DNA of 32,102 nt from Candidatus Aquicultor sp. (lineage in GTDB: Bacteria; Actinomycetota; Aquicultoria; Aquicultorales; Aquicultoraceae), in NCBI GenBank assembly GCA_036504445.1, contig DASXVE010000025.1:377955-410056 (forward strand), written 5' to 3'. Position numbers and translations under genes: made by a program. Under the pieces are notes generated by a model, which did not search any database, had not been told where the DNA came from, and saw only the letters and a program-made list of their open reading frames with translations. This document shows, in pieces, positions 15,014-32,102 of the stretch. Numbering within the stretch: position 1 is the stretch's first letter; each line of letters opens with the position of its first letter.

Positions 15014-15679
15014 CTACCCTTGTATTTCTTTTTCCATCATACCTACACGGTGAAAGAGCGATTTTATGTCGCACGGGATTCTGATCTGGGTAACTTGCGT
15101 CCCCTCTGGTGCGCTAATCACCACAGACGGGGTAAGTACCAGGACACCTTTTACCCCTGCTTCAGCCAATAAGTTAATGCTATGCTGGACCCAGCTTGGG
15201 TGAGTCGCCACTACCGCAACCTTTATGCCCAATGACTTAAGCTCCGGCGAGATACCTTCAATGGGCCGGACTTCCTTACCGTTAACCACAACGCCACGGT
15301 CATTTGGATCTTCCGAGAAAAACGCGGTCGACACAAAGCCGTACTTTTCGACAAGGAAAAAGCTGAATAGCGCGTTGATTGCCTTTGCCGACCCTATAAA
15401 AGCAATCGGCGCAAGTGTGGGCAGCGACAAGAAGTCGCTTAGGATATGTCGTAGCCCCTCGATGCTGTAACCGACACCCCGCTTGCTCGGCTTATTATCG
15501 ATAAACGAGAGATCGTTGCGTACCGTTACTTCATTCAGCCCCAGTGCTCCGGCTATTTCCTTCGAAGTTATGGTACCCTTCTTCCCTGCCACCAGCCATT
15601 CGGTTAGAAGGCAATGGTATAAGGCTAAGCGGTTTAGTACGGCCGCCGGTGTTGGTTTCGTATTTGACGAGATATCCAT
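15014..15679 (-). CDS. Rex-like redox-sensing repressor
   Basis: A 221-residue protein of the Rex family, which binds DNA when NAD+/NADH is high and releases it when NADH rises. The winged helix part (about 10-80) is well conserved: TITSKEIAGALGLNEVTVRNDLSFIDNKPSKRGVGYSIEGL matches the Rex signature VRKDLSYFG-x-x-GxRGVGY. The Rossmann domain (about 88-205) is present, but the usual GxGxLGxAL NAD loop reads FIGSAKAINAL here. The C-terminal helix is short. The ATG at 15679 has GAGGTG seven bases upstream; an ATG five codons earlier overlaps that site. It is divergent from the cytochrome cluster, and Rex-like operators are visible in the gap. Whether it still senses NADH is open. Confidence 0.85.
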   Translation of the reverse strand: MDISSNTKPTPAAVLNRLALYHCLLTEWLVAGKKGTITSKEIAGALGLNEVTVRNDLSFIDNKPSKRGVGYSIEGLRHILSDFLSLPTLAPIAFIGSAKAINALFSFFLVEKYGFVSTAFFSEDPNDRGVVVNGKEVRPIEGISPELKSLGIKVAVVATHPSWVQHSINLLAEAGVKGVLVLTPSVVISAPEGTQVTQIRIPCDIKSLFHRVGMMEKEIQG

Positions 15680-15694
15680 AGAGCTACACCTCAT

Positions 15695-16184: not shown

Positions 16185-18248
16185 ATGGCCACGGATTTGT
16201 ATAGGCGTGATATGGTGAACGAAAAAGCAACTCAACCGGTAGTATTATTTGACAATGTGATCCGCTGGACATTGATCACAGCAGTCGCACTCTTACCTCT
16301 CCTGATGTCCCCTGTAAATGTCGATGCTTACGATCTGCCAAAAGCAACGCTTCTGTATGCGCTTGCGTTGATTGCGGGGGCAAGTTATATCAGTCGATCG
16401 TTGTTGGCTGGTAAGTTTGTTGTTAAGAGAAGCCCTCTTAACAAGCCGTTATTTGCATTTGCCGTTATGGCAACTATTGCGACAATCGTCGCACCGGTGC
16501 CGCTTATGAGCATCGTCGGCCAATATACGCGTTACGAAAATCTTCCAACCATCTACAGCCTCGTGCTATTGAGCTTTTTTGCAACCCAGTATCTATCTGA
16601 AAAACAATGGTTTAACCGTACGGTTTCATATTCTTTTATAGCATTTGGAGTAATTAGTATTTACGGGGTCCTGCAAAGTCTGGGCTTTGACATCGTAAAC
16701 TCGGTGCTGAGCGAAAAAACGCTAGCCGCTTTCGGAACCCGGGTTACCTCAACCTTGGGTAACCCCGTTTTCTTTGGTGGCTATCTGGCAATTATGCTGC
16801 CGATTCTTTTCAATTACCTCATCGATGACGAGAACCTTCCGTTTATGCCAAAATCAGTTATAGGCACGTTGATGGTTCTCGGGATAACAGGTCTAGCCAT
16901 CTCTGGAACACGAGGCGCTTGGGCCGCAGCAATTATTGGCATAATCGTTATTACCATACTACGGCGCGATCAGTTGGCCAAAGCGGCCGGCACAGCATTT
17001 GCAATGCTCGTTTTCGGTATTGCTTTTATGCTGCTTGTGTTATCGCTCGCCGGTCCAAATATTGCTCAGAATCAGCTGGCTTCAATCAAGGATAGGTTGG
17101 TAACTTCGGCAGATTTATCGCAGGGCTCGGCAGTAAGCCGGCTAGAAAACTGGAAGTTGGCGGTTAATATGATTTCAATCCGCCCGCTCGGAGGTTATGG
17201 TCCCGATCAGATGCAGCTTTGGTCGGGCGCGTTCATGTCATTAAAGCAAGCGCAACTTGAGCCGAATACGGTACCCGATAGGGCGCATAATATATTTTTA
17301 CAGGCGGCAGTGAATGGTGGCGCTGTTAACCTAATCGTATACCTATGGATCTTTGCCATCATTATCATTTCCCTTGCACGTGCGCTAAAACGCCGGAATG
17401 GTTCACGCGGCTATGTGCTCGGCATCTCAGGCGCGTTTGCAGCGTATATCATACAGGGTTTTAGCGGAATTGATATTATCGGCATTACTCCAATGGTATG
17501 GATAATGGCTGGGGCCGTCGTAGGCATCGCTGCATATGATGCGCCGGAGCGTGTTCTCGTAACGTGGCCGTTTAAACGTTATGTGGAAGCTATCGCGGTT
17601 ACCTTCCTGGTAGCATCAGCGCTCATTGTCTTAGCTGCACGACCGGTAATCGCCGATTCTTACTATTATGATGGTGTGCTCAGCCGCTACTATGGGCATA
17701 CGGACCGAACAATCGCATCATTTACAAATGCGATCAATCTGAACCCATACCGAGGGCAATATCGTGCAGACCTCTCTGCCGTCCTTATGGCTCAAGGCAA
17801 TACGCTCAACAATCCGGCCATTATGGACAAAGCATTAGTACTAGCGGACGAAGGCTTGCGCTATAATCATGAGGACGCCACACTGATGCTCGCAGCGGCC
17901 AGCATATATCGGTTATATGCATCGATGGTAAAAGACGAGGCGATGATAGGGCAAGCGGAGAGCTTTTACAGCTCCGCAATGAACAAGGCACCGTATGATA
18001 TCAATCCAAGAAGAGGTTTGCTTGGTCTACGCATGCTTTTGGAAGCCTATACGGATGCAATAGAGCAAGCAAATACAATTCTTCAAATCGATCCTAACGA
18101 TTCGGACGTCAAATTCCGCCTGGCCCAGGCTTATGAAAAGACAGGTAAAGTCGGGCGCGCTAAACTTATATACCAAGATCTGTTGCAAAAGAATCCTAAC
18201 CAGCAGGATGTTAAAGACGCCCTCAACAACATCGGCAAAAACCAGTAG
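16185..18248 (+). CDS. O-antigen-ligase-like membrane protein with C-terminal TPR
   Basis: A 687-residue polytopic protein with roughly ten to twelve membrane helices (about 25-480) and a C-terminal tetratricopeptide region (about 490-687). Wzy_C-type signatures are visible: TSTLGNPVFFGGYLAIMLP, SGTRGAWAAA, a long outer loop with SRLENWKLAVNMI and GGYGPDQM, and PDRAHNIFLQAAVNGG. The family includes WaaL O-antigen ligases, Wzy polymerases and PglL-type protein glycosyltransferases that move lipid-linked glycan onto an acceptor outside the cytoplasm. The fused TPR is common in environmental members and may bind the acceptor protein. The start (ATG 16185 or 16212) is uncertain, as neither has a strong ribosome site. 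It leads a four-gene plus-strand cluster and has a paralogue at the other end. Glycan transfer to the cytochromes is inference. Confidence 0.85.
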   Translation: MATDLYRRDMVNEKATQPVVLFDNVIRWTLITAVALLPLLMSPVNVDAYDLPKATLLYALALIAGASYISRSLLAGKFVVKRSPLNKPLFAFAVMATIATIVAPVPLMSIVGQYTRYENLPTIYSLVLLSFFATQYLSEKQWFNRTVSYSFIAFGVISIYGVLQSLGFDIVNSVLSEKTLAAFGTRVTSTLGNPVFFGGYLAIMLPILFNYLIDDENLPFMPKSVIGTLMVLGITGLAISGTRGAWAAAIIGIIVITILRRDQLAKAAGTAFAMLVFGIAFMLLVLSLAGPNIAQNQLASIKDRLVTSADLSQGSAVSRLENWKLAVNMISIRPLGGYGPDQMQLWSGAFMSLKQAQLEPNTVPDRAHNIFLQAAVNGGAVNLIVYLWIFAIIIISLARALKRRNGSRGYVLGISGAFAAYIIQGFSGIDIIGITPMVWIMAGAVVGIAAYDAPERVLVTWPFKRYVEAIAVTFLVASALIVLAARPVIADSYYYDGVLSRYYGHTDRTIASFTNAINLNPYRGQYRADLSAVLMAQGNTLNNPAIMDKALVLADEGLRYNHEDATLMLAAASIYRLYASMVKDEAMIGQAESFYSSAMNKAPYDINPRRGLLGLRMLLEAYTDAIEQANTILQIDPNDSDVKFRLAQAYEKTGKVGRAKLIYQDLLQKNPNQQDVKDALNNIGKNQ

Positions 18249-18356
18249 GACCAACCAATTAACAATGCGATGCGATAGCATATCAAGAACGCCAAGCTTG
18301 AGGTTCAGCCTAACATGCATCATAATTGGCTTGGAATAAATATATTAAGGGTTTAA

Positions 18357-19370
18357 ATGGTTAGAGCGAAAACCAAAAGCCATTTTTTTTCAGATATCAG
18401 GGGCCAGGTCACAGCAATAATCGTTCTTGCAATCTCGTTTTTTTTGTTTGCAGGTATTTCAATCCAATTCTTTGCTGAACGGGGCACCCCTTGCACTGCA
18501 TGCCATGCGACCCGACAAGAAACGGCAACATGGAAAACATCTCCGCACCGTAATATCTCGTGTCTTTCCTGTCACCAAGACCCCGGATACTTAGCATTGG
18601 TGCAACTTGAGCTTAAAACGACACAAAACTTCACTTCCTGGCTGTTTAACGCATATCAGGACCCGATCGTCGCCCAGGTAAAAGACCAGAACTGTTTGAA
18701 ATGCCATGACCGGGAAATCCAAGATACAATTATCAGCAAAGGCATCCGCATGAGCCATAAAGAGGTCGCAATATATAAATGCACTTCTTGCCACGCGAGT
18801 GTTGCACATGAGATGTCAAACCGCGTGCGCAACTACCCCGATATGGACAGCTGTGCCAGCTGTCATAACTTCAACCAAGGTGATGTTGCTTGCGAGAAGT
18901 GCCATCCGCAGAAAACACAGGCGGAAGAACTTTATAATAAAGGGCCGTGGAAGGTAACACACGGTCCGGATTGGCAAACCGCACACGGCATGGGCGATCC
19001 CAAAACCTGCCAAACATGCCATGATACAAAATTCTGTATGAGTTGCCATAAAAGTGAAGTACCGCATACCGAGCCCTGGTCGTATTTGCATGGGCAGGCC
19101 GCAAAGGTCAATGTAGATGGTTGCTATCAGTGTCACAGAAAGAGTCTGTGCACGGATTGTCACCGTCTCGATATGCCGCATCCCGCAAATTTTCTGCAAA
19201 AACACGAGTTTGTCGTTAAAGACCACGGCTACGAACTCTGCTGGCGCTGTCACAATCAGCAAGATTGTGTAACGTGCCACTTCAGTGCAGCTCATCCAAA
19301 TACTCCTGGAAGCAGATTTGCGCCTAAAGACTTTAAAGGATACGGCGGCATTGGATCGAGTGGACTATAG
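18357..19370 (+). CDS. membrane-anchored 12-haem c-type cytochrome
   Basis: A 337-residue protein with one N-terminal anchor (about 17-40) and twelve CXXCH motifs in the exported part: CTACH, CLSCH, CLRCH-like CLKCH, CTSCH, CASCH, CEKCH, CQTCH, CMSCH, CYQCH, CTDCH, CWRCH and CVTCH. The first part resembles the NapC/NirT tetrahaem anchor family, which takes electrons from the quinol pool; the last six motifs form three close pairs (for example CQTCH-DTKF-CMSCH). Additional His residues (for example SPHRN, RMSHKE) can be distal ligands. The ATG at 18357 has AAGGG upstream. It lies about 110 bases after the ligase-like gene and 28 before a second cytochrome with the same layout. A role in moving electrons from the membrane outward is likely; the terminal acceptor is not known. 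Confidence 0.93.
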   Translation: MVRAKTKSHFFSDIRGQVTAIIVLAISFFLFAGISIQFFAERGTPCTACHATRQETATWKTSPHRNISCLSCHQDPGYLALVQLELKTTQNFTSWLFNAYQDPIVAQVKDQNCLKCHDREIQDTIISKGIRMSHKEVAIYKCTSCHASVAHEMSNRVRNYPDMDSCASCHNFNQGDVACEKCHPQKTQAEELYNKGPWKVTHGPDWQTAHGMGDPKTCQTCHDTKFCMSCHKSEVPHTEPWSYLHGQAAKVNVDGCYQCHRKSLCTDCHRLDMPHPANFLQKHEFVVKDHGYELCWRCHNQQDCVTCHFSAAHPNTPGSRFAPKDFKGYGGIGSSGL

Positions 19371-19398
19371 GCATGAAAGGTTGCGGTTGATTACGTAA

Positions 19399-20685
19399 AT
19401 GTTAATGGGTCAGTTACAGCTTCTAGCGACAAATCTATATGTTACATATATCGCTGCGGTGTCTGACGATTCGCTCTTTTCGCGCTTGTTTGGCGATTTA
19501 ACTAATTGGCGTCGCAACAAGAAACTGTTGGCTACCGCCCTCGAAAATACTAAAACTTATTTTTCTAATCCACGACGCTACTCGCGCGAAGTTGTCACCA
19601 TCATCGCTGCAATAATTTTAAGCCTGTTAGTTGTTGCGCTGCTTGTTATGGTTTTCCTATCAATAAAGAGACAGTATGCCATACGTAGGGCAGCGAAACG
19701 AGTGCGCAGGAAGCTGTCGAAAGAAGAGATCACGCGTCGAACCGTAACAACCTGTAGTATCTTGGGCATCATTCTCATTTTGCTTACGGTCGGCACAGCG
19801 CAACCTAGTTTATGCGCGCGCTGCCACGAAACCCAGAAAAGCGTATCGGAGTGGGAGACCTCCTCTCACAAGACTGTCGGCTGTCTCAGCTGTCATTATG
19901 AGCCTGGACTTATTGGTTATGCTTTGGGCACCACAAACGGAGTGAGCAATATGCTTACGCATTTCATAGATGCCAACCCTCCGGTGCAAGGAGCGGTAAC
20001 AAACAGCTCTTGCCTGCGATGTCATGACGATATTTTCAACCGCATCGTTGTCGACGAGCGTGAAATTCGTGTACGTCACAAGGATCTAATTACAGGAGGA
20101 CTAGCCTGTACGAGCTGCCATGCGCAAGTTGCGCATAAAACAGAAACCGGCGATACCTTTGCCATGAACATCTGCGTCGGCTGCCATACTAATACCAGCA
20201 AGACCGCAAGCTCAAAATGCTCTACTTGTCATCAACAAGATATTGCCTATAAGCCCGGACGCACACTCGATGACTGGCCGAAACAAAAAGGTCTGGGTGT
20301 AACTTGTACGGGTTGCCATAAGCAAGCAACAACAGCAAGCTGTGTTCGCTGCCATGGGCTTGAACTTCCGCACTCGGCCGAATTTCGGAAGAAACATGCG
20401 ATGCGCGCTGCAGAAACCAAAGGCGAGCTTTGCTTCAAATGTCACTGGAATAGCAAAATGAGCCAAAGAAGAATGTGCGGGTGTCATGACGCCCAAGGCG
20501 AAATCCACCCCGCACCTGAAATCTGGTATTACCAGCACCAATCTGAAGCTAGGATTAACGGCATATCCTGTAACTGCCACGCTACAACCTTCTGCGCAAG
20601 ATGTCATGACGATGCAAAGGCCGTCTATCCGAAGGGTAGCACGGGTGATGACCAGATGCACGGCGGCTGGCAAACCGGCTTCTAA
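19399..20685 (+). CDS. membrane multihaem cytochrome with two CXCH motifs
   Basis: A 428-residue paralogue of the preceding cytochrome. The N-terminus is longer, with two membrane helices (about 64-87 and 113-135) joined by a basic cytoplasmic loop. The exported part has ten CXXCH motifs (CARCH, CLSCH, CLRCH, CTSCH, CVGCH, CSTCH, CTGCH, CVRCH, CFKCH and a final CARCH). Two further sites, where the sister protein has normal motifs, read CGCH (after RRM) and CNCH (after GIS), with a single residue between the cysteines. Codons confirm both (TGC GGG TGT CAT; TGT AAC TGC CAC). So the twelve-site plan is kept but two sites are unusual. The start is weakly supported; ATG 19399 and 19405 are alternatives. 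The next gene is the second ligase-like protein. Confidence 0.92.
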   Translation: MLMGQLQLLATNLYVTYIAAVSDDSLFSRLFGDLTNWRRNKKLLATALENTKTYFSNPRRYSREVVTIIAAIILSLLVVALLVMVFLSIKRQYAIRRAAKRVRRKLSKEEITRRTVTTCSILGIILILLTVGTAQPSLCARCHETQKSVSEWETSSHKTVGCLSCHYEPGLIGYALGTTNGVSNMLTHFIDANPPVQGAVTNSSCLRCHDDIFNRIVVDEREIRVRHKDLITGGLACTSCHAQVAHKTETGDTFAMNICVGCHTNTSKTASSKCSTCHQQDIAYKPGRTLDDWPKQKGLGVTCTGCHKQATTASCVRCHGLELPHSAEFRKKHAMRAAETKGELCFKCHWNSKMSQRRMCGCHDAQGEIHPAPEIWYYQHQSEARINGISCNCHATTFCARCHDDAKAVYPKGSTGDDQMHGGWQTGF

Positions 20686-20727
20686 CTTATACTTTGAATT
20701 GACCTTAGGGGTGAATAGCAATAATAC

Positions 20728-22743
20728 ATGAGTAAAAATGCAAGAAACGCCGGGCGACGAGAATCGGTTTCCAACCCACTATTGCTACCGCTTGCAATAA
20801 CTCTGGCGCTGCTGCCGGTCATCATGTTTCCCTACATGGCGGACACGTATGCGCTTCCAAAGGCTACGTTCCTGTATGTTGCCACCCTTACCTTGTTCTC
20901 TTTATACGTCATACAAGCGTTTCGAGCAGGTGAATTTGTGATTTACCGGTCACCGCTAGATCTCCCGGTTGTTCTCTTCCTTCTTGTGACATTTTTAGCC
21001 GTGCTATTTTCAGGCGCCCCTGTCCTAAGCATACTTGGCAAATACAGAAGATATGAGGGCTTACTCTCGCTGTTATGCTACGGCGCCCTGTATTTTTTCG
21101 CCGTGCAATCGGTACGCACTAAGCAGCATTTTGAGAAACTTGTCTCGGTGCTGGCCATTGGCATGGCACCGGTTGTGTTGTACGGCACGGCCCAGGCTAT
21201 CGGTATCGATTTCCCTTCGGTAGTAAGATTTGAGTCGCGTGTCCACTCCAGCCTGGGCAATCCGATTCTGCTGGGTTCGTACCTCGTAATAATGCTTCCC
21301 TTGCTTATCTCATTTATCCGCAATGTCGAACAAGAGAAATGGAAAGTATTTGCCGGGGCCCTGGTGCTTCTCGGTACCATCAACCTCATTTATACCGAAT
21401 CACGCGGTGCTTGGCTTGGCGTTGTCGCAGCGCTTGCAGGTGCGTTTGCAATCCGTGCGATTCAAAACTTTAGAAGCACCAAGCAACGCCGCAAACGGCA
21501 AAAAAACGTAGAGACAAAAAATAAAACCCTTATCATTGGTGTTATTGGCGTCATCGCCCTAGCGTTTATAATCTCGCTTGTGTTAACCCCAGCCAACCAC
21601 TTCAGCCAGCGGCTGACATCAACGTTTGTCGTCACCGAAGGCTCCGCGGCAACCCGAATAGAGACGTGGAAAGCGGCCACCAGGATGATCGCCGACCGAC
21701 CGGTCCTCGGCTACGGGCCAGAGCAAATCGGGTACTGGTTCCCAACATACAAAACAGCTCGCCATGTGATGCTTGACCCAAACGGCATGGCGGATAGAGC
21801 CCATAATGAGTTCTTACAAATTGCCGTTGATGCCGGCTTACCAGGCCTCTTCTTATACATCTGGTTATTTGCGGTTGCCCTTTGGATAGCAATAAAACGA
21901 GGCGCCTCGAAACAGAAACCATATCTCATGGGAATCTCTGCGGCGCTTATAGGGTATATCGTACAGGCACAAACGGGCATATCCGCTCTATTTATTGCGC
22001 CGCTCGTATGGTCGCTACTCGCAATATCGATCAACTTGAGCGCGCCGCACAATACGCTCAAGAAACTGGCCATACCGATCCCAAAATGGGTCAAAGCTCA
22101 GGTTGTTATTCCGGTTGTATTGCTTGCGAGTTTCGCGCTGGCGGCAATCTCCATTTTGCCGGTTGCCGCCGACCTTGATTCTTATAAAGGCCAACGGCTT
22201 GCCCACACAGGCGCTATAGATGACGCGTCGAAGAAGTTCGAAATGGCAATCAAGCTTTTCCCTTATCAGGCACAGTACGAGAAGGACGCTACCGAATTCT
22301 ACCTTGATTATGCGTCGTACACACAAAATAGTATTTTTGCACGCCGGGCTGCTCTTATTGCCCAGCAAGGTCTCGCCTATAACGCCCGAAATTTTGAGCT
22401 GCTCTATTATGTTGGCGAAACCAATTTGCTTGCCTACCGGCTTACGAGTGATGATATGGCGCTCTCGGATGCCGAGCGTTATTACAATCAAGTGGAAAAT
22501 ATCTGGCCGGGGCAAACTCTGGTCAAACGTAAACTCTTTGATATAGCGCTACTGAGAGACAATCAGAAACGCGCGGAAGAATTGGCGCGGAAGATCGCCG
22601 ATATGGGTCAAGCCGATCCGAATCTTTATTACTCGCTCGCAACATACGCGCAAAAACACGGCGATAGCAAAACTGCTAGCCGGTATTTCCAGAAAGTCCA
22701 GCAACTTGACCCTGAATTCTTGTTAAAAATGCGGAGTAATTAG
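20728..22743 (+). CDS. second O-antigen-ligase-like protein with C-terminal TPR
   Basis: A 671-residue paralogue of the first ligase-like protein. Corresponding motifs are HSSLGNPILLGSYLVIMLP, TESRGAWLGV, TRIETWKAATRMIADRPVLGYGPEQIG and ADRAHNEFLQIAVDAG, in the same order, followed by TPR-like helices (about 490-671; KFEMAIKLFPYQAQYEKDATEFY, ASRYFQKVQQLDPEF). A cytoplasmic loop rich in Arg and Lys (about 245-270) is longer than in the paralogue. The family moves glycans from lipid carriers to acceptors on the outer face of the membrane. It closes the cluster and converges with the GGDEF gene, with three bases between their stops. Two diverged copies around two diverged cytochromes suggest each enzyme may be matched to one cytochrome; this is inference. 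Confidence 0.85.
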   Translation: MSKNARNAGRRESVSNPLLLPLAITLALLPVIMFPYMADTYALPKATFLYVATLTLFSLYVIQAFRAGEFVIYRSPLDLPVVLFLLVTFLAVLFSGAPVLSILGKYRRYEGLLSLLCYGALYFFAVQSVRTKQHFEKLVSVLAIGMAPVVLYGTAQAIGIDFPSVVRFESRVHSSLGNPILLGSYLVIMLPLLISFIRNVEQEKWKVFAGALVLLGTINLIYTESRGAWLGVVAALAGAFAIRAIQNFRSTKQRRKRQKNVETKNKTLIIGVIGVIALAFIISLVLTPANHFSQRLTSTFVVTEGSAATRIETWKAATRMIADRPVLGYGPEQIGYWFPTYKTARHVMLDPNGMADRAHNEFLQIAVDAGLPGLFLYIWLFAVALWIAIKRGASKQKPYLMGISAALIGYIVQAQTGISALFIAPLVWSLLAISINLSAPHNTLKKLAIPIPKWVKAQVVIPVVLLASFALAAISILPVAADLDSYKGQRLAHTGAIDDASKKFEMAIKLFPYQAQYEKDATEFYLDYASYTQNSIFARRAALIAQQGLAYNARNFELLYYVGETNLLAYRLTSDDMALSDAERYYNQVENIWPGQTLVKRKLFDIALLRDNQKRAEELARKIADMGQADPNLYYSLATYAQKHGDSKTASRYFQKVQQLDPEFLLKMRSN

Positions 22744-22746
22744 CGC

Positions 22747-24084
22747 TTATCCACAGGTCTCTTCATAGCAACACACTAAGTTTTTACCGCGCTGCTTGCT
22801 GACGTAAAGGGCTGTGCTAACCGCGTTCATGAGTTCATCTACGTTTTCGCCGAGGCTTGGAAACTCGGCAATGCCAATGCTGACGGAAAGCTGCATTTCC
22901 TTGTCGTCTTTTTCGATAATGGAATCGTTAACGGCACGACGAATCCGGTTGGCCAAAACGGATGCCTGCGTGCAACTGGTGCTTGGCAAGATCAAGACAA
23001 ACTCATCGCCGCCGTACCGCGCTTTGTAATCGGTCAGACGCGAACATGCGGTAATAGTGGTAGCCACCCTTTTGATCGCCCTATCCCCTTCTACGTGACC
23101 GAACCAATCGTTGATACTGTTGAGATTGTCGATGTCCATCAGAACTACGGCGAAATAACCGCCGTACCGCTGCGCCCTGTTTACCTCTAACTCGAGTGCC
23201 GAGAAGAAGTGCTTGATATTAAATAGACCTGTCAGTGGATCGGTTATGGAAAGTTCTTCATTCTTCTCGATAAGAAGCGCTTTTTGAAGCGCAAGCGTAG
23301 CTTGGCTGGAAAATACAGTGAAGCGGTCGATCTCTGCCACAGTAAAATGACGCGGTTTAAAATCGCCGACAAAGAGAAGCCCGATCACTTCACCGCCCTC
23401 ACGCAAAGTCGCCGCTAAAACCGATATCGTTCCCTCGTTCATTACGGGGTTATCAAAGAGCGGCTCGTCATTGATATCAAGGATATGTAGCGGCGCATCA
23501 TTATCTAGTAGCTGTTCGGTGATCCCGCCCGGTTGAAGCTCCCAGACAGTCTCTTCGATTTCCTTCGAATAGCCGATCGCCTCTGCAAGCCTGCATGTTT
23601 CGGTCCGTTCGTTGAATATAATGAGGCTACCGGCGGCGCAATGGGTCACCGCAAGTGCACTATCAACGATGGCATGGTAAATGTCCGCGCTTTTCTTATG
23701 CGTTGAGAATTCGCGGCCGACCGATGCGATGTCGATCGTATTCGCCGCGGCGCTGGCTAAATCATCCGCAAGCGCCCTGATTGTATCCGCGCAAGCATCT
23801 CGAATCACGGTGACGTTCTCCAGCCCCGGGATACCGGAAATGCCGGCGGCGACTTCGGTAAGATCAACGATAACATCCACATCACCTATTGATGGCAGCT
23901 GCTCGATTCGATCAAATACAGGCACGTTAAGGTCCCGGACGCACTCGGATTCTACTCCATTGCGCTGGGGGTCGCATAAACCAACGATGGTGCTTGATGA
24001 GCACACATTAAGTGTTGATGCGAGCTTGACGGCATCACTACCAGTGCCAATTACAGCGATGCGAAGCGAGTTTTTGCCTTTCAT
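22747..24084 (-). CDS. Rossmann-GAF-GGDEF diguanylate cyclase
   Basis: A 445-residue protein. Residues about 6-120 form a Rossmann-like domain (LRIAVIGTGSDAVKLASTLN, then VGLCDP and DVDVIVDLT) like the nucleotide-binding half of Gfo/Idh/MocA dehydrogenases. A GAF domain follows (about 140-275), then a short linker helix and a GGDEF domain (about 280-440) with active motif RYGGDEF and an inhibitory-site RxxD (RLTD) five residues before it. It should therefore make cyclic di-GMP with product inhibition, controlled by a dinucleotide or small ligand. No transmembrane helix is seen. The ATG at 24084 is preceded by a G-rich stretch; a GTG at 24099 is an alternative. Upstream, CTATACC is repeated directly at 24164-24181. 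It converges on the cytochrome cluster. Confidence 0.9.
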   Translation of the reverse strand: MKGKNSLRIAVIGTGSDAVKLASTLNVCSSSTIVGLCDPQRNGVESECVRDLNVPVFDRIEQLPSIGDVDVIVDLTEVAAGISGIPGLENVTVIRDACADTIRALADDLASAAANTIDIASVGREFSTHKKSADIYHAIVDSALAVTHCAAGSLIIFNERTETCRLAEAIGYSKEIEETVWELQPGGITEQLLDNDAPLHILDINDEPLFDNPVMNEGTISVLAATLREGGEVIGLLFVGDFKPRHFTVAEIDRFTVFSSQATLALQKALLIEKNEELSITDPLTGLFNIKHFFSALELEVNRAQRYGGYFAVVLMDIDNLNSINDWFGHVEGDRAIKRVATTITACSRLTDYKARYGGDEFVLILPSTSCTQASVLANRIRRAVNDSIIEKDDKEMQLSVSIGIAEFPSLGENVDELMNAVSTALYVSKQRGKNLVCCYEETCG

Positions 24085-24260
24085 AGTATGTACCCCCACT
24101 GGTTTCCGTAATATCTGCCTTAAGGAAAAGTATCGTCTTTTTCTATAGAAATATTTAGCACTACTATACCAATCCTATACCATGAACACCAGGAGAAGTG
24201 GTCAAAGGGCAAGCACCGGTATTTATATGACGGTTACCGCTTACTGGGGGGCCGTCTTAT

Positions 24261-24419: not shown

Positions 24420-26309
24420 TTACATCAGCCTCGCTAGAACCTGGGCAAGCGCGCCGCCTAAACCAAACGCAAGCACCCAGCTCCCGAACCAGATAGGAAC
24501 CGCCTGTTTGGCACCGCGCTCCTTAAAGAGAATCATCAGCGACGCGATACACGGTACAAAAAGCGTAATGGTAACCAGCGCAACCACGGTCTGCACCGCA
24601 CTTAAACGCATTGTATACAGCCCGGCAGCCCCGAAATCCCTGCGAACGAGACCCATAACGAAGGCGGTTGCCGTCTCCCGCGGCAATTCTAGCCAACCGG
24701 TTGTTATGGGTGCCCATAGCGTTTCCCAAATTTTTAAGAATCCTGAAACCTGCATGACTGAGACTATAAGCGCGCCGGCAAAAAACCAGGGCGTGGCTTC
24801 TTTCATAAAGGCATAAGAGCGCAAAACCGCTTTTTTGACCACGTTATCCAGTCTCGGCAAGCGAAGCGGTGGCAAATCGATAAGCAGCGGTGATGTTTCG
24901 CCGGGAAGACTCCGTGAAAGTATCGTGCCGATTGCAACCAGAATTATGAAAATCGCACCCATATAGAGTGCAATATAGCCGGGGCCAAGCGCCGCCAACA
25001 GCACCGTGATGACACCGAGCTGCGCGGAACACGGGATCGCCCATTGCAGGATAGCGGTAGCAATTGTCTTTTCTCGCTCTGTTCCTAAGAGGCGCGTCGT
25101 TATAGTCGCCATAGTGACGCAACCGAATCCGAGGATAAGCGGCACAACCGCACGACCGTTTAACCCGATGCCGTTGAGCGCCCTATCGACGAGCGTCGCC
25201 AACCTCGGTAAGTACCCTGAATCTTCCATCAACGCCAGCGCCAGATAAAACCCAAGAACCAGCGGCAATAATAACCCGAGCAAGTAGGTAGGAGTCATCG
25301 TCAAAAGGCCGAACTCCCCGATGAGAATTTTACCGAGCACTCCACTTTGTGACGTCAATGGATTCACCACGCTTGTAATAAACGGCTCCCAGTAGCCCTG
25401 CATGATCGTGCCCTCGGTAACACCGACTATCATCTGTGCGACCAGTACACCGACGAGTTCATAGAGGCCGTAGAGAATAATTACGAAGATCGGCAGGCCT
25501 GTTATCGGATTAAGAACCATCCTCCCAAGCTGCTGACGAATTGTCTCCGTCGTGCGGGTTTCACGAACGACGTGCCCGATGATATCGTTAACTCTCTCGC
25601 GGCGACTCACGTAAATCGCTTCGCGCTCGAGCCCCGGCTCAATACCGTGTCGAGCCGCAACGTAAGGGTCGCCCTCAAGAACTATAAGCGCCTCCGGCTG
25701 TGATCCGACACGCGAGAGCATCTCATGTAGCTTCTTATGAAGTGATGGGCTCTGATGGCCTTCCCGCGCTTCCCCGATCGCCGTTTCAACGTCTTCTAAG
25801 CCTTGCCGTTTTACAGCCACTGTAGGGATGACCGGTACGCCCAGAAGGTCTGACAACAAGTCTATATCGATCACCAGGCCATGCTGTTCTACCTCGTCCA
25901 TGAAGTTTAGTGCGACGATAACCGGCAAGCCCATATCGATAAGCTGCAGAGTTAGGAAGAGATCTCTCTCAATATGAACAGCATCGACAACATTGATGAC
26001 CGTATCGGCGCTTAAGATAATGTCGCGCGCAACCGCTTCCTCGTCATTAAACGAAGAGACACCGTAGATACCGGGAGTATCGATAATAAGGTTATCCCCA
26101 TAGCGCGCCTGGCTGATTTCAACGGTTGTCCCAGGATAATTCGACACATCAACGTAGAGCCCGGAAAAGTAGTTGAAGAATACCGATTTACCCACATTCG
26201 GGTTGCCGACCAAAACGATCTTTTGGCAATCGTGCGGTACATCGATCGCTAGCGATCCGCTGTGACAGTGCCCGCCATGCGTGGTTTTGACCTCGATATT
26301 ATCTTCCAT
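24420..26309 (-). CDS. feoB: ferrous iron transporter FeoB
   Basis: Inner-membrane Fe(II) transporter of 629 residues. The N-terminal G domain has G1 GNPNVGKS (35-42), G2 around YPGTTVE, G3 DTPGIYG and G4 NFMDE, followed by a helical spacer domain and the polytopic core with two Gate regions and conserved cysteines (LILGFGCVTMATITTR, AIPCSAQLGV, FVPCIAS). Before the G domain is a His/Cys-rich segment, HGGHCHSG (11-18), which may bind metal. The start overlaps the end of feoA by 11 bases and has AAGGA upstream. The order on the minus strand is fur, feoA, feoB, Cys-rich gene. It supplies iron that the many haem proteins encoded nearby would need. Confidence 0.96.
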   Translation of the reverse strand: MEDNIEVKTTHGGHCHSGSLAIDVPHDCQKIVLVGNPNVGKSVFFNYFSGLYVDVSNYPGTTVEISQARYGDNLIIDTPGIYGVSSFNDEEAVARDIILSADTVINVVDAVHIERDLFLTLQLIDMGLPVIVALNFMDEVEQHGLVIDIDLLSDLLGVPVIPTVAVKRQGLEDVETAIGEAREGHQSPSLHKKLHEMLSRVGSQPEALIVLEGDPYVAARHGIEPGLEREAIYVSRRERVNDIIGHVVRETRTTETIRQQLGRMVLNPITGLPIFVIILYGLYELVGVLVAQMIVGVTEGTIMQGYWEPFITSVVNPLTSQSGVLGKILIGEFGLLTMTPTYLLGLLLPLVLGFYLALALMEDSGYLPRLATLVDRALNGIGLNGRAVVPLILGFGCVTMATITTRLLGTEREKTIATAILQWAIPCSAQLGVITVLLAALGPGYIALYMGAIFIILVAIGTILSRSLPGETSPLLIDLPPLRLPRLDNVVKKAVLRSYAFMKEATPWFFAGALIVSVMQVSGFLKIWETLWAPITTGWLELPRETATAFVMGLVRRDFGAAGLYTMRLSAVQTVVALVTITLFVPCIASLMILFKERGAKQAVPIWFGSWVLAFGLGGALAQVLARLM

Positions 26310-27185: not shown

Positions 27186-27911
27186 CTATTTCCGCGTATC
27201 GACTAGCGGTTTCTCTATAATATAGACTTTGTTCATTACATCGTAGTACTGAATTTTATCAACAACGTCCATGCCTTCGGTTACCTTACCGATTACGGTA
27301 TATTTACCATCAAGCTGCGACTCATCGTTGAGACAGATATAGAACTGGCTGCCGCCGGAATTGACATCCTTTGCATTATGCGCCATACCGACCGTCCCGC
27401 GCAGATGCGGTACGTCGTTGAGTTCCAGCTTTATGGTGTAGCCCGGGTTCCCCAAACCATCGTCATTCGGATCGTTGTTTTTGCTTAGTGGATCGCCGGT
27501 TTGAGCGACAAAGCCCGGTTCAATTCTGTGCCACTTAATACCGTTATAAAAACCTGAATTAATTAATTTAACAACACTATCAACAGTCTTCGGCGCTTTG
27601 TGCGGGAAAAGCTGTATCACGATCTTTCCCCTATTTGTCTCGATAACCGCGAAAATCTGCTTGTTCGGCACAGCGGTTTGCGGCGGTTGCTCGGCTGGCT
27701 GCAGCGCGTCTTGGCCGTTCTGTTGCGCTAGCGTATCTCTCGTATAGTTTGTTGCATCCTGCACCGCAACTGTTGTCGTGCTACGTGCCTTCTTGGTGCC
27801 CGAATCACCACCGGAACCGAGTTGCTTCAAAGACCCACAGCCCGACACCGTTAACAGCGCCGCAAGAGCTGTGATGATCAGCACTATAAAACTATGACCA
27901 ATGCGTTTCAT
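27186..27911 (-). CDS. cyclophilin-type peptidyl-prolyl isomerase lipoprotein
   Basis: A 241-residue exported foldase. The N-terminus is a lipoprotein signal (MKRIGHSFIVLIITALAALL then TVSGC, lipid-bearing Cys at 25). A Ser/Thr/Gln-rich linker (about 30-90) leads to a cyclophilin domain: ETNRGKIVIQLFPHKAPKTVDSV, GFYNGIKWHRIEPGFVAQTGD, MAHNAKDVNSGGSQFYICL and LDGKYTVIGKV, which retain the catalytic Arg of FHR-like WHRIEPGF and the GSQFYI core. It should assist folding of proteins outside the membrane, possibly the exported cytochromes. ATG 27911 has GGAGG five bases upstream; the codons before it are not needed. Confidence 0.93.
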   Translation of the reverse strand: MKRIGHSFIVLIITALAALLTVSGCGSLKQLGSGGDSGTKKARSTTTVAVQDATNYTRDTLAQQNGQDALQPAEQPPQTAVPNKQIFAVIETNRGKIVIQLFPHKAPKTVDSVVKLINSGFYNGIKWHRIEPGFVAQTGDPLSKNNDPNDDGLGNPGYTIKLELNDVPHLRGTVGMAHNAKDVNSGGSQFYICLNDESQLDGKYTVIGKVTEGMDVVDKIQYYDVMNKVYIIEKPLVDTRK

Positions 27912-27990
27912 TAGGACCTCCATACAATGCGAGGGTATGTACAATCATATCCATAATATCATAGAAACTCCTCTCTATCCTTCGTTAGCA

Positions 27991-28108: not shown

Positions 28109-28300
28109 CGAACAGTGTTTTTTGTACTAGTATTTAGTGTTTTCCCAGGTTATAATCCTTACGGAATAACATGGCAACCTTGCCTATGCAAGCCCCGTGT
28201 GCTATCATTTGAATCGGCGTCGAAATCGTCATTTTTTTAGTTCGCCCTTGTGAAAAGGGTCACCATATATAAAACCGTAAGTCTGAAAGGAATTTATAGT

Positions 28301-28999
28301 ATGGAAGGCAACTTCAGAAAAATTTTGGTCTACGTGACGATCTTCTTGACGGTCGCAATTATCGCAATCCTCGCAATTATGCTAAAGCAAGTTTTCTCCA
28401 GTCAAAGTGTCCCGCAAAACCCAGCAGATCAAGCGTACATCGTCGCAAAAGCGTTAACGACCAAGAATCCTAAAGATGCGGATGGATGGTTCAGATTGGC
28501 AAAAGCTGAAGCCGACATGGGGCGTACCGGTGACGCGGTCAGCCACTTCAAAAAAGCGATCGAGCTTAAGCCGGCCGCACCGATGCTCCACTACACACTC
28601 GGTCTCGTCCTTGAAGATTCAGGCAAAGAAGAAGAGGCCATTAAGGAGTATCAGAACGAGCTGAGGGTAACCGAAGGCAAAAATGAGCTTGCGCTGTACG
28701 AACTCGGCCGCATTGCGAACAAGCGCAAACAATTTACTCAAGCCGTTGCGTATCTGCAACAAGCACTCGTTAGGATGGCGGGCGGCGCTGACGCTCATTA
28801 CGAACTCGGTAAAGCATACGTAGGGCTGGGTAAAGACGATCTCGCAATGAAGGAATTTAACGAGACGCTGCGCTATATCCCGGACCATACAGATGCGCAA
28901 ATTGCGATTCAGCAATTGCAGATGAAAAAAGTAGGCGCTACTGGAACTACTGGAACTAACGGAAAGACGACAACCACGACCGTACCTAATAAGAAGTAA
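28301..28999 (+). CDS. membrane-anchored TPR protein
   Basis: A 232-residue protein with one N-terminal helix (about 7-28) and four to five TPR units (about 55-210): NPKDADGWFRLAKAEADMGR, AVSHFKKAIELKPAAPMLHY, EEEAIKEYQNELRVTEGKNELALYELGRI-type repeats and AMKEFNETLRYIPDHTDAQ. The C-terminus is a Gly/Thr-rich tail ending TTTTTVPNKK. TPR proteins are scaffolds for complex assembly. ATG 28301 has AAAGGA ten bases upstream; a GTG at 28250 would add 17 residues. It is followed 34 bases later by the NHL-repeat gene and then, after a long leader, by a secreted cytochrome, so an assembly role for an exported cytochrome complex is plausible. Confidence 0.85.
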   Translation: MEGNFRKILVYVTIFLTVAIIAILAIMLKQVFSSQSVPQNPADQAYIVAKALTTKNPKDADGWFRLAKAEADMGRTGDAVSHFKKAIELKPAAPMLHYTLGLVLEDSGKEEEAIKEYQNELRVTEGKNELALYELGRIANKRKQFTQAVAYLQQALVRMAGGADAHYELGKAYVGLGKDDLAMKEFNETLRYIPDHTDAQIAIQQLQMKKVGATGTTGTNGKTTTTTVPNKK

Positions 29000-29033: not shown

Positions 29034-30527
29034 TTGGTTAGAACGAGGACTCTGATAATTTTAACATTGATATTGCTCCTTACGCTGGGGGCGCTCGCGT
29101 ACTTCTACTTCTACGTACTCAACAACCCCAATGATAAGGTTCAGAGCGAAGGTATGACGCACCTATTTAGTATTTACGGATGGGGCGACAGACCGGACCA
29201 GCTCTTAAAGCGACCGCACGGTGTCGCATCTGATGGAAGTGGCAATATCTACGTAACTCTGCCGACCAGGGGTAAAGTGGTCGTATTTGACAACAATGGT
29301 AATTTCCTCTATCAATTTGGCTCAAAAGGCGTTAACCCGGGCTCGCTCATGGGGCCGCTGGGTATCGCGATCGACTCACAACGTGGCCGCATCTACGTTG
29401 CAGACCGCGAACGCTTTCGTCTTATTATTTATAACTTGCAAGGCAAGTTCCAAAAAGAAACGACATTGCTCTCGCCGGTAACGCCGGCAGTGGGCAAAGA
29501 CAGGGTGTACTTATCAACGTTCGGCCCGCTCGTCACATTGAGCTTAGACGGCCGCATTCTTGATACCTGGGGCGGTCGTAGCCGCGCCATCGGTGGTTTC
29601 GACTTTCCGCATGGAGTGGGTGTCGATAGCCGTGGCAACATCTTTGTGTCCGACACTAACAACACAAGACTTACCGCACTAAACAAGAAAGGCGACGTGC
29701 TTTGGACGCGCGGTCGTCCACCGGAAGGTATCATGGACCCGAAGAAAGGCCTTAACCTGCCGGCAGGTCTCTGTATGGACGACAAAGAACGCATCTACGT
29801 CGTCGACGCGTTCGACTATGGAATTAAAGTGTTTAACACCAGAGGCACGCAGGTAGCTACCTTTGGTGGCAGCTCTGGTAACCTTGAGGGCCAGTTCAAT
29901 ATGCCGGACGGCATTGCGTATCTAGGCAACCGCATGTTTGCCATCGCTGATAAATTTAACGACCGCGTACAGGTCGTCAGGTTAACCATCCCCGGCGAAG
30001 AGAGCCCGTTTGATAACTTCCCGTGGTGGATATTGTTGCTCATACCGCTTCTCATGCTCCTGCTGAGGCGTAAGAAGTTCATCGCCAACGAGGACTTCAT
30101 GGAACTCGTTGTGCAGGATCAGAAGCTCAGGCTCCTTACCCAGGTGGCAAAACGCATACATGTAAGCCAGGAAGCGTTTGATAGGTTCTCTGAGTATGAG
30201 GAAGATGCGTTGAAGTTCGCCGATATAGCATCGGTGCGCCCATACTCCAAAGAAGAGATCCAGGAGCTTATGGAGAAGCATGACGTCGAGGAGAAAACTG
30301 CTACTTTCTTGGCGCTCTCACGGAAGAAGTTTACTGAGAAGCTCATGTTAAATCGTTTTACCCTCGCATTTGAGGACGAGAAGGTCAAGGAGCTTCTTGA
30401 GGAGAACCCGAAGAAGAAGCCGCCTAAGATGATCAATTATAAAGAGTTCATCGAGAAATATGATGTCGAGGTAGAGGACGAAGAGCCGGAGCCGGTTGCA
30501 GAGCCGAGCGATCCGGGGGTAGAGTAA
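29034..30527 (+). CDS. NHL beta-propeller membrane protein with cytoplasmic tail
   Basis: A 497-residue protein starting at TTG with AGGAGG eight bases upstream. A signal anchor (about 6-28) is followed by five to six NHL repeats (about 45-315; for example RPHGVASDGSGNIYV, GPLGIAIDSQRGRIYVAD, FPHGVGVDSRGNIFVSD, LPAGLCMDDKERIYVVD and MPDGIAYLGNRMFAIAD), a second helix (about 327-345, WWILLLIPLLMLLLRRKK) and a charged, helical tail of about 150 residues. The propeller is probably outside and the tail inside. The tail has no recognised domain. NHL propellers bind proteins or glycans. Similar genes sit next to multihaem cytochrome genes in anaerobes, and this one precedes such a gene, so a role in assembling or anchoring it is likely but unproven. 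Confidence 0.85.
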   Translation: MVRTRTLIILTLILLLTLGALAYFYFYVLNNPNDKVQSEGMTHLFSIYGWGDRPDQLLKRPHGVASDGSGNIYVTLPTRGKVVVFDNNGNFLYQFGSKGVNPGSLMGPLGIAIDSQRGRIYVADRERFRLIIYNLQGKFQKETTLLSPVTPAVGKDRVYLSTFGPLVTLSLDGRILDTWGGRSRAIGGFDFPHGVGVDSRGNIFVSDTNNTRLTALNKKGDVLWTRGRPPEGIMDPKKGLNLPAGLCMDDKERIYVVDAFDYGIKVFNTRGTQVATFGGSSGNLEGQFNMPDGIAYLGNRMFAIADKFNDRVQVVRLTIPGEESPFDNFPWWILLLIPLLMLLLRRKKFIANEDFMELVVQDQKLRLLTQVAKRIHVSQEAFDRFSEYEEDALKFADIASVRPYSKEEIQELMEKHDVEEKTATFLALSRKKFTEKLMLNRFTLAFEDEKVKELLEENPKKKPPKMINYKEFIEKYDVEVEDEEPEPVAEPSDPGVE

Positions 30528-31454: not shown

Positions 31455-32102
31455 ATGAAAAAAGGCTTAGTCATTTTAATGGCTATCGCGATGCTCTTTG
31501 CGATGTCCAGCTTAGCTCTAGCTAAACAAGAGCTCAACTCAGACCCAAGCAGCACGTTCGTTATCGGTGCAAAAGGTAACATCGTTGCCAACACCTATAC
31601 CCCAGTTGCTAGTGATACTGCAAATCCGTTAAGCGTAAAGGATTATCGGTACTATGAGCAGGGTAAGGTCGTAACCGCAGCTGGGACGGAGAATCCGTTT
31701 ATGGCTGACAGCACCCACGTATACGGCACCTGGAACAGCCCGTACACCATGGGTATCGATGGTTACAACTACAACGATGCTCAGGACTATGTTGAGACCG
31801 GCAAGCAAGCCGCACAGATGGGCGATGCAACAGAGCTTCCGATCAACCCAGCGTTCTTAAGCGCAGTTCAGACCATGATGGCTCCATTTATGCCAGCAAT
31901 GACGGCATACGGCATCACAATGGGCACTGGAGCAGCGGGTGGTAAGTATCCTGGCCAAGCGGTCATCAATACTCACCTCGCTGGTAACTTCCAGTCAGGC
32001 CCACACGGCGGCTACCTCACCTCGACACACCGTTGCCGTGAGTGCCACGCAGTCCACCGTGCAGCAGGTAAGTTCAAATTGTTGCGTTCAGACACAAGGT
32101 TT
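31455..32102 (+). CDS. secreted multihaem c-type cytochrome, N-terminal part
   Basis: The first 216 codons; the frame is open at the window end. A Sec signal (MKKGLVILMAIAMLFAMSSL, cleavage likely after ALA at 23) shows export. Residues 24-190 are Tyr/Asn/Gly/Ala-rich without haem motifs, and the first motif is CRECH (194-198) in THRCRECHAVHRAAGKFKLL, the C-x2-CH-x2-H pattern seen in multihaem surface cytochromes. More motifs are expected downstream. AGGAGGTG lies seven bases before the ATG. A second in-frame start, GTG at 31407, also has a strong ribosome site (GGAGGTGA) and would add 16 residues. The gene has a very long leader and its own promoter. It may be the main extracellular electron carrier or filament subunit, which the window does not let me decide. 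Confidence 0.85.
   Translation, partial: MKKGLVILMAIAMLFAMSSLALAKQELNSDPSSTFVIGAKGNIVANTYTPVASDTANPLSVKDYRYYEQGKVVTAAGTENPFMADSTHVYGTWNSPYTMGIDGYNYNDAQDYVETGKQAAQMGDATELPINPAFLSAVQTMMAPFMPAMTAYGITMGTGAAGGKYPGQAVINTHLAGNFQSGPHGGYLTSTHRCRECHAVHRAAGKFKLLRSDTRF

Follow-up and report, generated by a model that had tools for sequence, protein, structure and literature searches.

A locus pairing Wzy_C-TPR membrane proteins with multihaem cytochromes in Candidatus Aquicultor: a candidate system for glycosylating exported cytochromes

The subject of this analysis is a cluster of four membrane-protein genes in Candidatus Aquicultor sp., which is placed in the class Aquicultoria (Actinomycetota) and has a genome of 2.57 Mb. 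The cluster lies in what we call the window, the whole analyzed stretch of 32,102 nucleotides (contig DASXVE010000025.1, positions 377,955 to 410,056), whose end is also the end of the contig (C25:410056). All four open reading frames (ORFs) are on the + strand. The outer two, A (16185..18248, 687 aa) and A' (20728..22743, 671 aa), encode Wzy_C-type, O-antigen-ligase-like proteins with tetratricopeptide repeat (TPR) domains, and the inner two, B (18357..19370, 337 aa) and B' (19399..20685, 428 aa), encode multihaem cytochromes; the spacers A/B, B/B', and B'/A' are 108, 28, and 42 bases long. The initial annotation had described an A-B-B'-A' order of two paralogous but diverged pairs, ligase-like TPR proteins around membrane-bound multihaem cytochromes, and this description holds. 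A and A' are paralogues with 32% identity (E = 8.7e-92), as are B and B' with 34% (E = 7.9e-28), and the order recurs in three genomes of the same family (G005, G009, and G004).

A is a predicted membrane glycan transferase of WaaL/PglL fold with a predicted extracellular C-terminal TPR domain, and A' is the second Wzy_C-TPR paralogue, identified by Pfam, by its tree position, and by its neighborhoods. Both match Pfam Wzy_C above the curated cut-off of 31.7 bits (A, 79.8 bits, E = 2.3e-22; A', 84.3 bits, E = 9.6e-24) as well as TPR families, and Wzy_C is matched by 34 out of 34 relatives of the pair. The AlphaFold2 (AF2) model of A has a predicted local distance difference test score (pLDDT) of 90 and a predicted template modeling score (pTM) of 0.90. 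Its top structural match is the O-antigen ligase WaaL (7tpg; Z 21.6, VIA; residues 19-451), followed by TPR proteins, and 7tpg is the sole PDB match of a profile of the transmembrane (TM) part (E = 2e-14). R243 and R319 of A align to R191 and R265 of 7tpg, and H368 aligns to the second His of its HAHN motif (H313 by our count); among 34 diverse members, the two arginines are invariant and the histidine is nearly so. The counterparts of these residues are R215, R288, and H338 in E. coli WaaL and R224, R298, and H349 in Neisseria PglL (PMC3643930). With Wzy_C above the cut-off, two Arg and one His in place, and the predicted WaaL fold, A and A' belong to the Wzy_C/WaaL-PglL superfamily. The charge distribution of A is consistent with 13 TM segments that leave the TPR domain and the catalytic loop on the same, outer side, and from hydropathy and the positive-inside rule we infer that this domain faces outward.

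B and B' match the multihaem cytochrome and NapC/NirT families of Pfam. B is a membrane-anchored cytochrome with 12 CXXCH motifs and an NrfH/NapC-like N-terminal region, of which residues 37-153 match NrfH (2j7a, E = 5.2e-5), a similarity that suggests quinol oxidation. Its score against the NCBIfam NrfH equivalog, 54.8 bits, falls below the cut-off of 134.2 bits, and B is therefore an NrfH relative, not NrfH itself. Its partner B' is predicted to have two N-terminal TM segments and carries 10 CXXCH and 2 CXCH motifs. The two CXCH motifs lie near residues 352-405, where most distant homologues show CXXCH. All eight orthologues from the family retain both motifs, as does the Anaerosomatales-type locus L192; the motifs represent either haem attachment with an unusual spacing or the loss of haem sites.

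Linkage between the two kinds of gene was examined within Actinomycetota. The 40 related genomes surveyed yielded 110 ligase genes, and for 73 of these an ORF with four or more CXXCH motifs is found no more than 5 kb away (directly adjacent for 48); the genomes are not independent, and part of the loci had been picked via cytochrome hits. In control stretches, 8.2% of bases lie that close and 3 out of 406 genes are multihaem; these controls were twenty 20-kb stretches, 18 of them from the window genome, with positions picked blind to content. Among 296 genomes of the phylum, 29 give a strong ligase hit over the full length (E ≤ 1e-100), and B-type cytochromes are present in 28 of these versus 10 of the 267 others. 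That difference has to be read knowing that the ligase alignment behind the profile came in part from ligases linked to cytochromes and that the genomes are related. The co-occurrence of Wzy_C-TPR and multihaem genes expected under the initial annotation is thus borne out. The link between them is real, deep, and functional-looking, and it is no local accident. Ligase genes within ordinary polysaccharide clusters or apart from cytochromes, an arrangement that the initial annotation regarded as breaking the link, were found only for some paralogues, such as the L101-type and L104-type ones and L137.

Gene order outside the window genome shows which parts of the arrangement are kept together. 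In another genus, A-B-B' stays together in four genomes, with A' elsewhere, next to FeoB. The compact order in genus g4 (L111, L112, L114, and L116) is Rex, A, B, B', peptidyl-prolyl isomerase (PPIase), TPR, NHL, and secreted cytochrome, with the PPIase directly after B' in all four loci, and the A' orthologues of this genus lie between GGDEF and FeoB genes (L115, L128, L143, and L150). The TPR-NHL-secreted cytochrome order is conserved among loci.

The gene trees bear directly on the mirror symmetry. First-position (B) and second-position (B') cytochromes form separate groups (support of 95 for the B' side in the Shimodaira-Hasegawa-like approximate likelihood ratio test [SH-aLRT], weaker inside), and they usually travel as a pair. 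Because each group holds Coriobacteriia-type members, the B/B' split is old and predates the divergence of Aquicultoria and Coriobacteriia. For the ligases, 8 rows of A, 10 of A', and a third paralogue linked to FeoB instead make up one well-supported group. Apart from one row from elsewhere in the class (L117), all its members come from the family, so the A/A' duplication is recent. The duplications are therefore unmatched and the mirror order is incidental. A matched ligase/cytochrome duplication, for which the initial annotation had proposed a test, is ruled out by the two trees, and the symmetric order does not support two matched ligase-cytochrome pairs.

Outside the class, in named Coriobacteriia, Anaerosomatales, and other Actinomycetota, Pfam annotation reveals a recurring order of glycosyltransferase family 4 (GT4), Bac_transf, ligase, Rex, TPR, NHL, and cytochromes, which we take as the ancestral operon; the window contains many of these components, as far as position 32102. 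Within 10 kb of 31 ligases, there is a Bac_transf gene in 25, a multihaem gene in 21, and a nanowire-type cytochrome gene in 13; this set consists of named loci mostly outside the class, a few of them distant hits, and several of those without these genes are cut by contig ends. The B-B' pair is also present in operon loci L192 and L203. Four Oleimmundimicrobium-type loci (L068, L074, L081, and L086) share a conserved module of Bac_transf, ligase, 7-haem, 19-haem, and 9-haem cytochromes, and Rex. The first ORF of L117 (G016:C21), two genes from a ligase, encodes about 2900 residues with 30 CXXCH motifs, and several nanowire-type cytochromes are found in the same region.

The secreted cytochromes linked to these ligases resemble known nanowire proteins. 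The family profile of the linked 6-7 haem cytochromes has OmcS (1.3e-10) and OmcE (6.6e-8) as its top two PDB hits, scores that CXXCH composition may inflate. The window holds the N-terminal part of one large secreted multihaem cytochrome (31455..32102, +; PHGGY..CRECHAVH type by sequence), cut by the contig end; it has relatives in L111, L112, and L116, and its family matches the profile that hits OmcS and OmcE. An AF2 model of a secreted 6-haem cytochrome reached a pLDDT of 40, too low for fold comparison, and a nanowire-type cytochrome used as query found no match among plasmids. Mean Ser+Thr content is 18.6% in the linked secreted cytochromes, 11.8% in the 12-haem proteins, and 11.4% in other proteins. 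Filaments of OmcS and OmcE in Geobacter are reported to be glycosylated (PMC9473688). In the open-access literature, we found no paper naming the enzyme that glycosylates OmcS or OmcE, nor any connecting O-antigen-ligase-type proteins with cytochrome wires.

Taken together, B is NrfH-like, the secreted cytochromes are OmcS/OmcE-like and Ser/Thr-rich, and such filaments are reported to be glycosylated, which suggests that B and B' feed electrons to an exported cytochrome that the ligase modifies; the repeated siting of the ligases beside electron-exporting haem proteins makes them good candidates for wire-glycosylating enzymes. By a narrow balance, we favor the reading that A and A' are protein O-oligosaccharyltransferases (O-OTases) of WaaL/PglL fold dedicated to exported cytochromes. 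The catalysis, acceptor, electron path, and topology that we infer for the system would fit together as follows. A Bac_transf-type transferase would charge undecaprenyl phosphate with the first sugar phosphate, a GT4 enzyme would then extend it, and the lipid-linked glycan would be flipped. With the acceptor gripped by the outward TPR domain of A, the R243/R319/H368 site would transfer the glycan to Ser/Thr of a secreted OmcS/OmcE-type cytochrome, which is a likelier acceptor than B or B'. The TPR, NHL, and PPIase proteins may aid folding or assembly of the secreted cytochrome, while B and B' would relay electrons from quinol to it.

An internal precedent for a protein acceptor comes from the window genome itself, where another Wzy_C-TPR paralogue (L104; G000:C12, ~59.3-61.6 kb) lies right after a type IV prepilin gene in a pil cluster ordered T2SSE, T2SSF, N_methyl, and Wzy_C. 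This paralogue is, from its sequence context, likely a pilin glycosyltransferase. PglL-type O-OTases have been recognized by just this adjacency, 21 of 31 candidates being next to pilin genes (PMC3643930), and the ligase genes studied here share the more general trait of lying beside a candidate acceptor.

Beyond the cautions attached to the profile scores and the genome counts above, several observations weigh against an O-OTase role. No PglL-specific Pfam domain was found at E ≤ 0.01 in A, A', or the other relatives of the 34-member set; single-sequence PDB searches with the secreted cytochromes found nothing, and only the family profile matched. B-B' pairs are also found without a ligase nearby. 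No glycan has so far been seen on these cytochromes. There is no glycan-synthesis gene beside A or A' in the window; a copy of the glycan-initiation genes is found elsewhere in the genome (C25:112-132 kb).

Another such observation is that paralogue operons at L101, L130, L132, and L138 keep glycan genes without cytochromes, which means that the fold does have a polysaccharide role. The Wzy_C-TPR proteins could then act as polymerases or ligases for an exopolysaccharide or a wall glycan by which exported cytochromes are anchored noncovalently, the genes being grouped by simultaneous need. This is the strongest of the alternatives, and we regard it as possible but on balance unlikely. Wzy_C spans both polymerases and ligases, the Bac_transf and GT4 genes of the ancestral operon are also hallmarks of polysaccharide synthesis, and the xap polysaccharide of Geobacter is required for holding cytochromes. 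The window island, however, has cytochromes without glycan genes, and nothing resembling Wzx or Wzz was noticed in the operon, although no systematic search was made. The outward TPR domain and the prepilin-adjoining paralogue also suit a protein acceptor.

It would seem improbable that the TPR part does the work, the protein helping exported cytochromes to assemble or mature and Wzy_C being a membrane platform that transfers no glycan. In favor of this are a CcmH/CycH-type TPR resemblance in 12 of the 34 members and the linked TPR, PPIase, and NHL proteins, which point to assembly, yet a platform of this kind would account neither for the conservation of R243, R319, and H368 nor for the co-occurring glycan-initiation genes. 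The proposal of the initial annotation that each ligase serves its own neighbor, A acting on B and A' on B', has the gene order in four same-family genomes in its favor but is very improbable, being largely contradicted by the trees, by genus g4, where A' leaves the cluster while B' stays, and by the 12-haem class, which as a whole is not Ser/Thr-rich. Its broader idea of glycosylation-linked electron export fares better without that pairing, as the ligase/cytochrome link, the glycan-initiation genes, and the OmcS/OmcE-type cytochromes all agree with the O-OTase reading.

The surrounding genes form an island, larger than the cluster described in the initial annotation, that extends past A', through GAF-GGDEF, FeoB, Fur, cyclophilin, TPR, and NHL genes to the start of the secreted cytochrome and the window end at 32102. 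Divergent from A is a gene for a Rex-like redox repressor (15014..15694, −; Pfam PF06971 and CoA_binding) that matches the NCBIfam Rex models at E = 1.5e-30, below their cut-off. Rex-type genes adjoin Wzy_C-TPR ligases in many loci across the phylum, and a search for the Rex operator TTGTG-N8-TCACAA gave 73 matches against 71.7 expected, and thus no signal. Downstream of A' are a GAF-GGDEF protein (22747..24099, −; Pfam), whose Rossmann-like N-terminal region is a weak GFO_IDH_MocA match, and the ferrous-iron transporter FeoB (24420..26309, −; NCBIfam TIGR00437, E = 3.5e-110, above cut-off). Both are conserved neighbors of A' orthologues, and the GAF-GGDEF orthologues remain beside A' and FeoB; the two genes possibly stand outside the A/B/B'/A' system. 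Further along are a secreted cyclophilin-type PPIase that is kept in the island (27186..27944, −; Pfam PF00160), a membrane-anchored TPR protein that belongs to the nanowire module (28250..28999, +; Pfam TPR), and an NHL six-bladed beta-propeller protein (29034..30527, +; Pfam NHL, E = 5.8e-25).

A separate observation concerns the relatives of the truncated cytochrome. In 15 distinct sequences among them, a site occupied by Cys in 11 homologues holds an in-frame stop codon that is always TGA and never TAA or TAG, within the motif GHDxxxRH-U/C-xRxM-FNPED (loci L111:10064-12505(+), L112, L115, L116, L128, L240, L244, L246, L247, L248, L249, and L252); the window copy ends before this site. A hairpin resembling a selenocysteine insertion sequence (stem ATCC/GGAT, loop GGA) lies 23 bases after the TGA and is exact in 15 of 15 TGA forms versus 1 of 11 Cys forms, though most Cys forms encode the same residues there. 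It shows compensatory changes in 3 of 8 pairs and is kept at synonymous sites, and tRNA-Sec was found in the genomes of the relatives. Read through the TGA, the L111 gene gives an 813-residue protein with one selenocysteine. It is thus probable, judging from these sequences, that the large secreted multihaem cytochromes with the conserved TGA contain selenocysteine; cytochromes go unmentioned in one 2006 survey of bacterial selenoproteins.

More tentatively, and with the balance tipping slightly the other way, many multihaem-bearing Actinomycetota may possess a dedicated operon for nanowire glycosylation and assembly (Wzy_C-TPR, sugar-phosphate transferase, GT4, Rex, TPR, and NHL), which would be the first known enzyme system of this kind, with one branch of its exported cytochromes containing selenocysteine. 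The operon names a testable enzyme, a glycan-initiation partner, and a likely acceptor in a phylum little studied for extracellular electron transfer, and it opens the role of the sugar coat, whether insulation, anchoring, or filament assembly, to genetic test.

Among known systems, the PglL/PilO-type O-OTases, such as Neisseria PglL and the Acinetobacter PglL-ComP pair, are similar in having Wzy_C, the R/R/H residues, and a gene adjoining the presumed acceptor, often a polymerizing extracellular protein. A and A' differ from them in their fused outward TPR domain, in lacking the PglL-specific Pfam domain, in their presumed multihaem cytochrome acceptor, and in belonging to Actinomycetota. The WaaL ligase 7tpg has the active-site residues in common with A and, across 361 residues, the membrane fold (Z 21.6), whereas A has an extra TM helix and the TPR domain and stands in a context of cytochromes rather than lipopolysaccharide genes. 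The linked 6-7 haem secreted cytochromes resemble the Geobacter OmcS/OmcE nanowires in profile but come from Actinomycetota, are known here from sequence, and are represented in the window by a truncated copy. Finally, B is similar to the NrfH/NapC quinol dehydrogenases over residues 37-153 and differs from them in its 12 haems and in being paired with B'.

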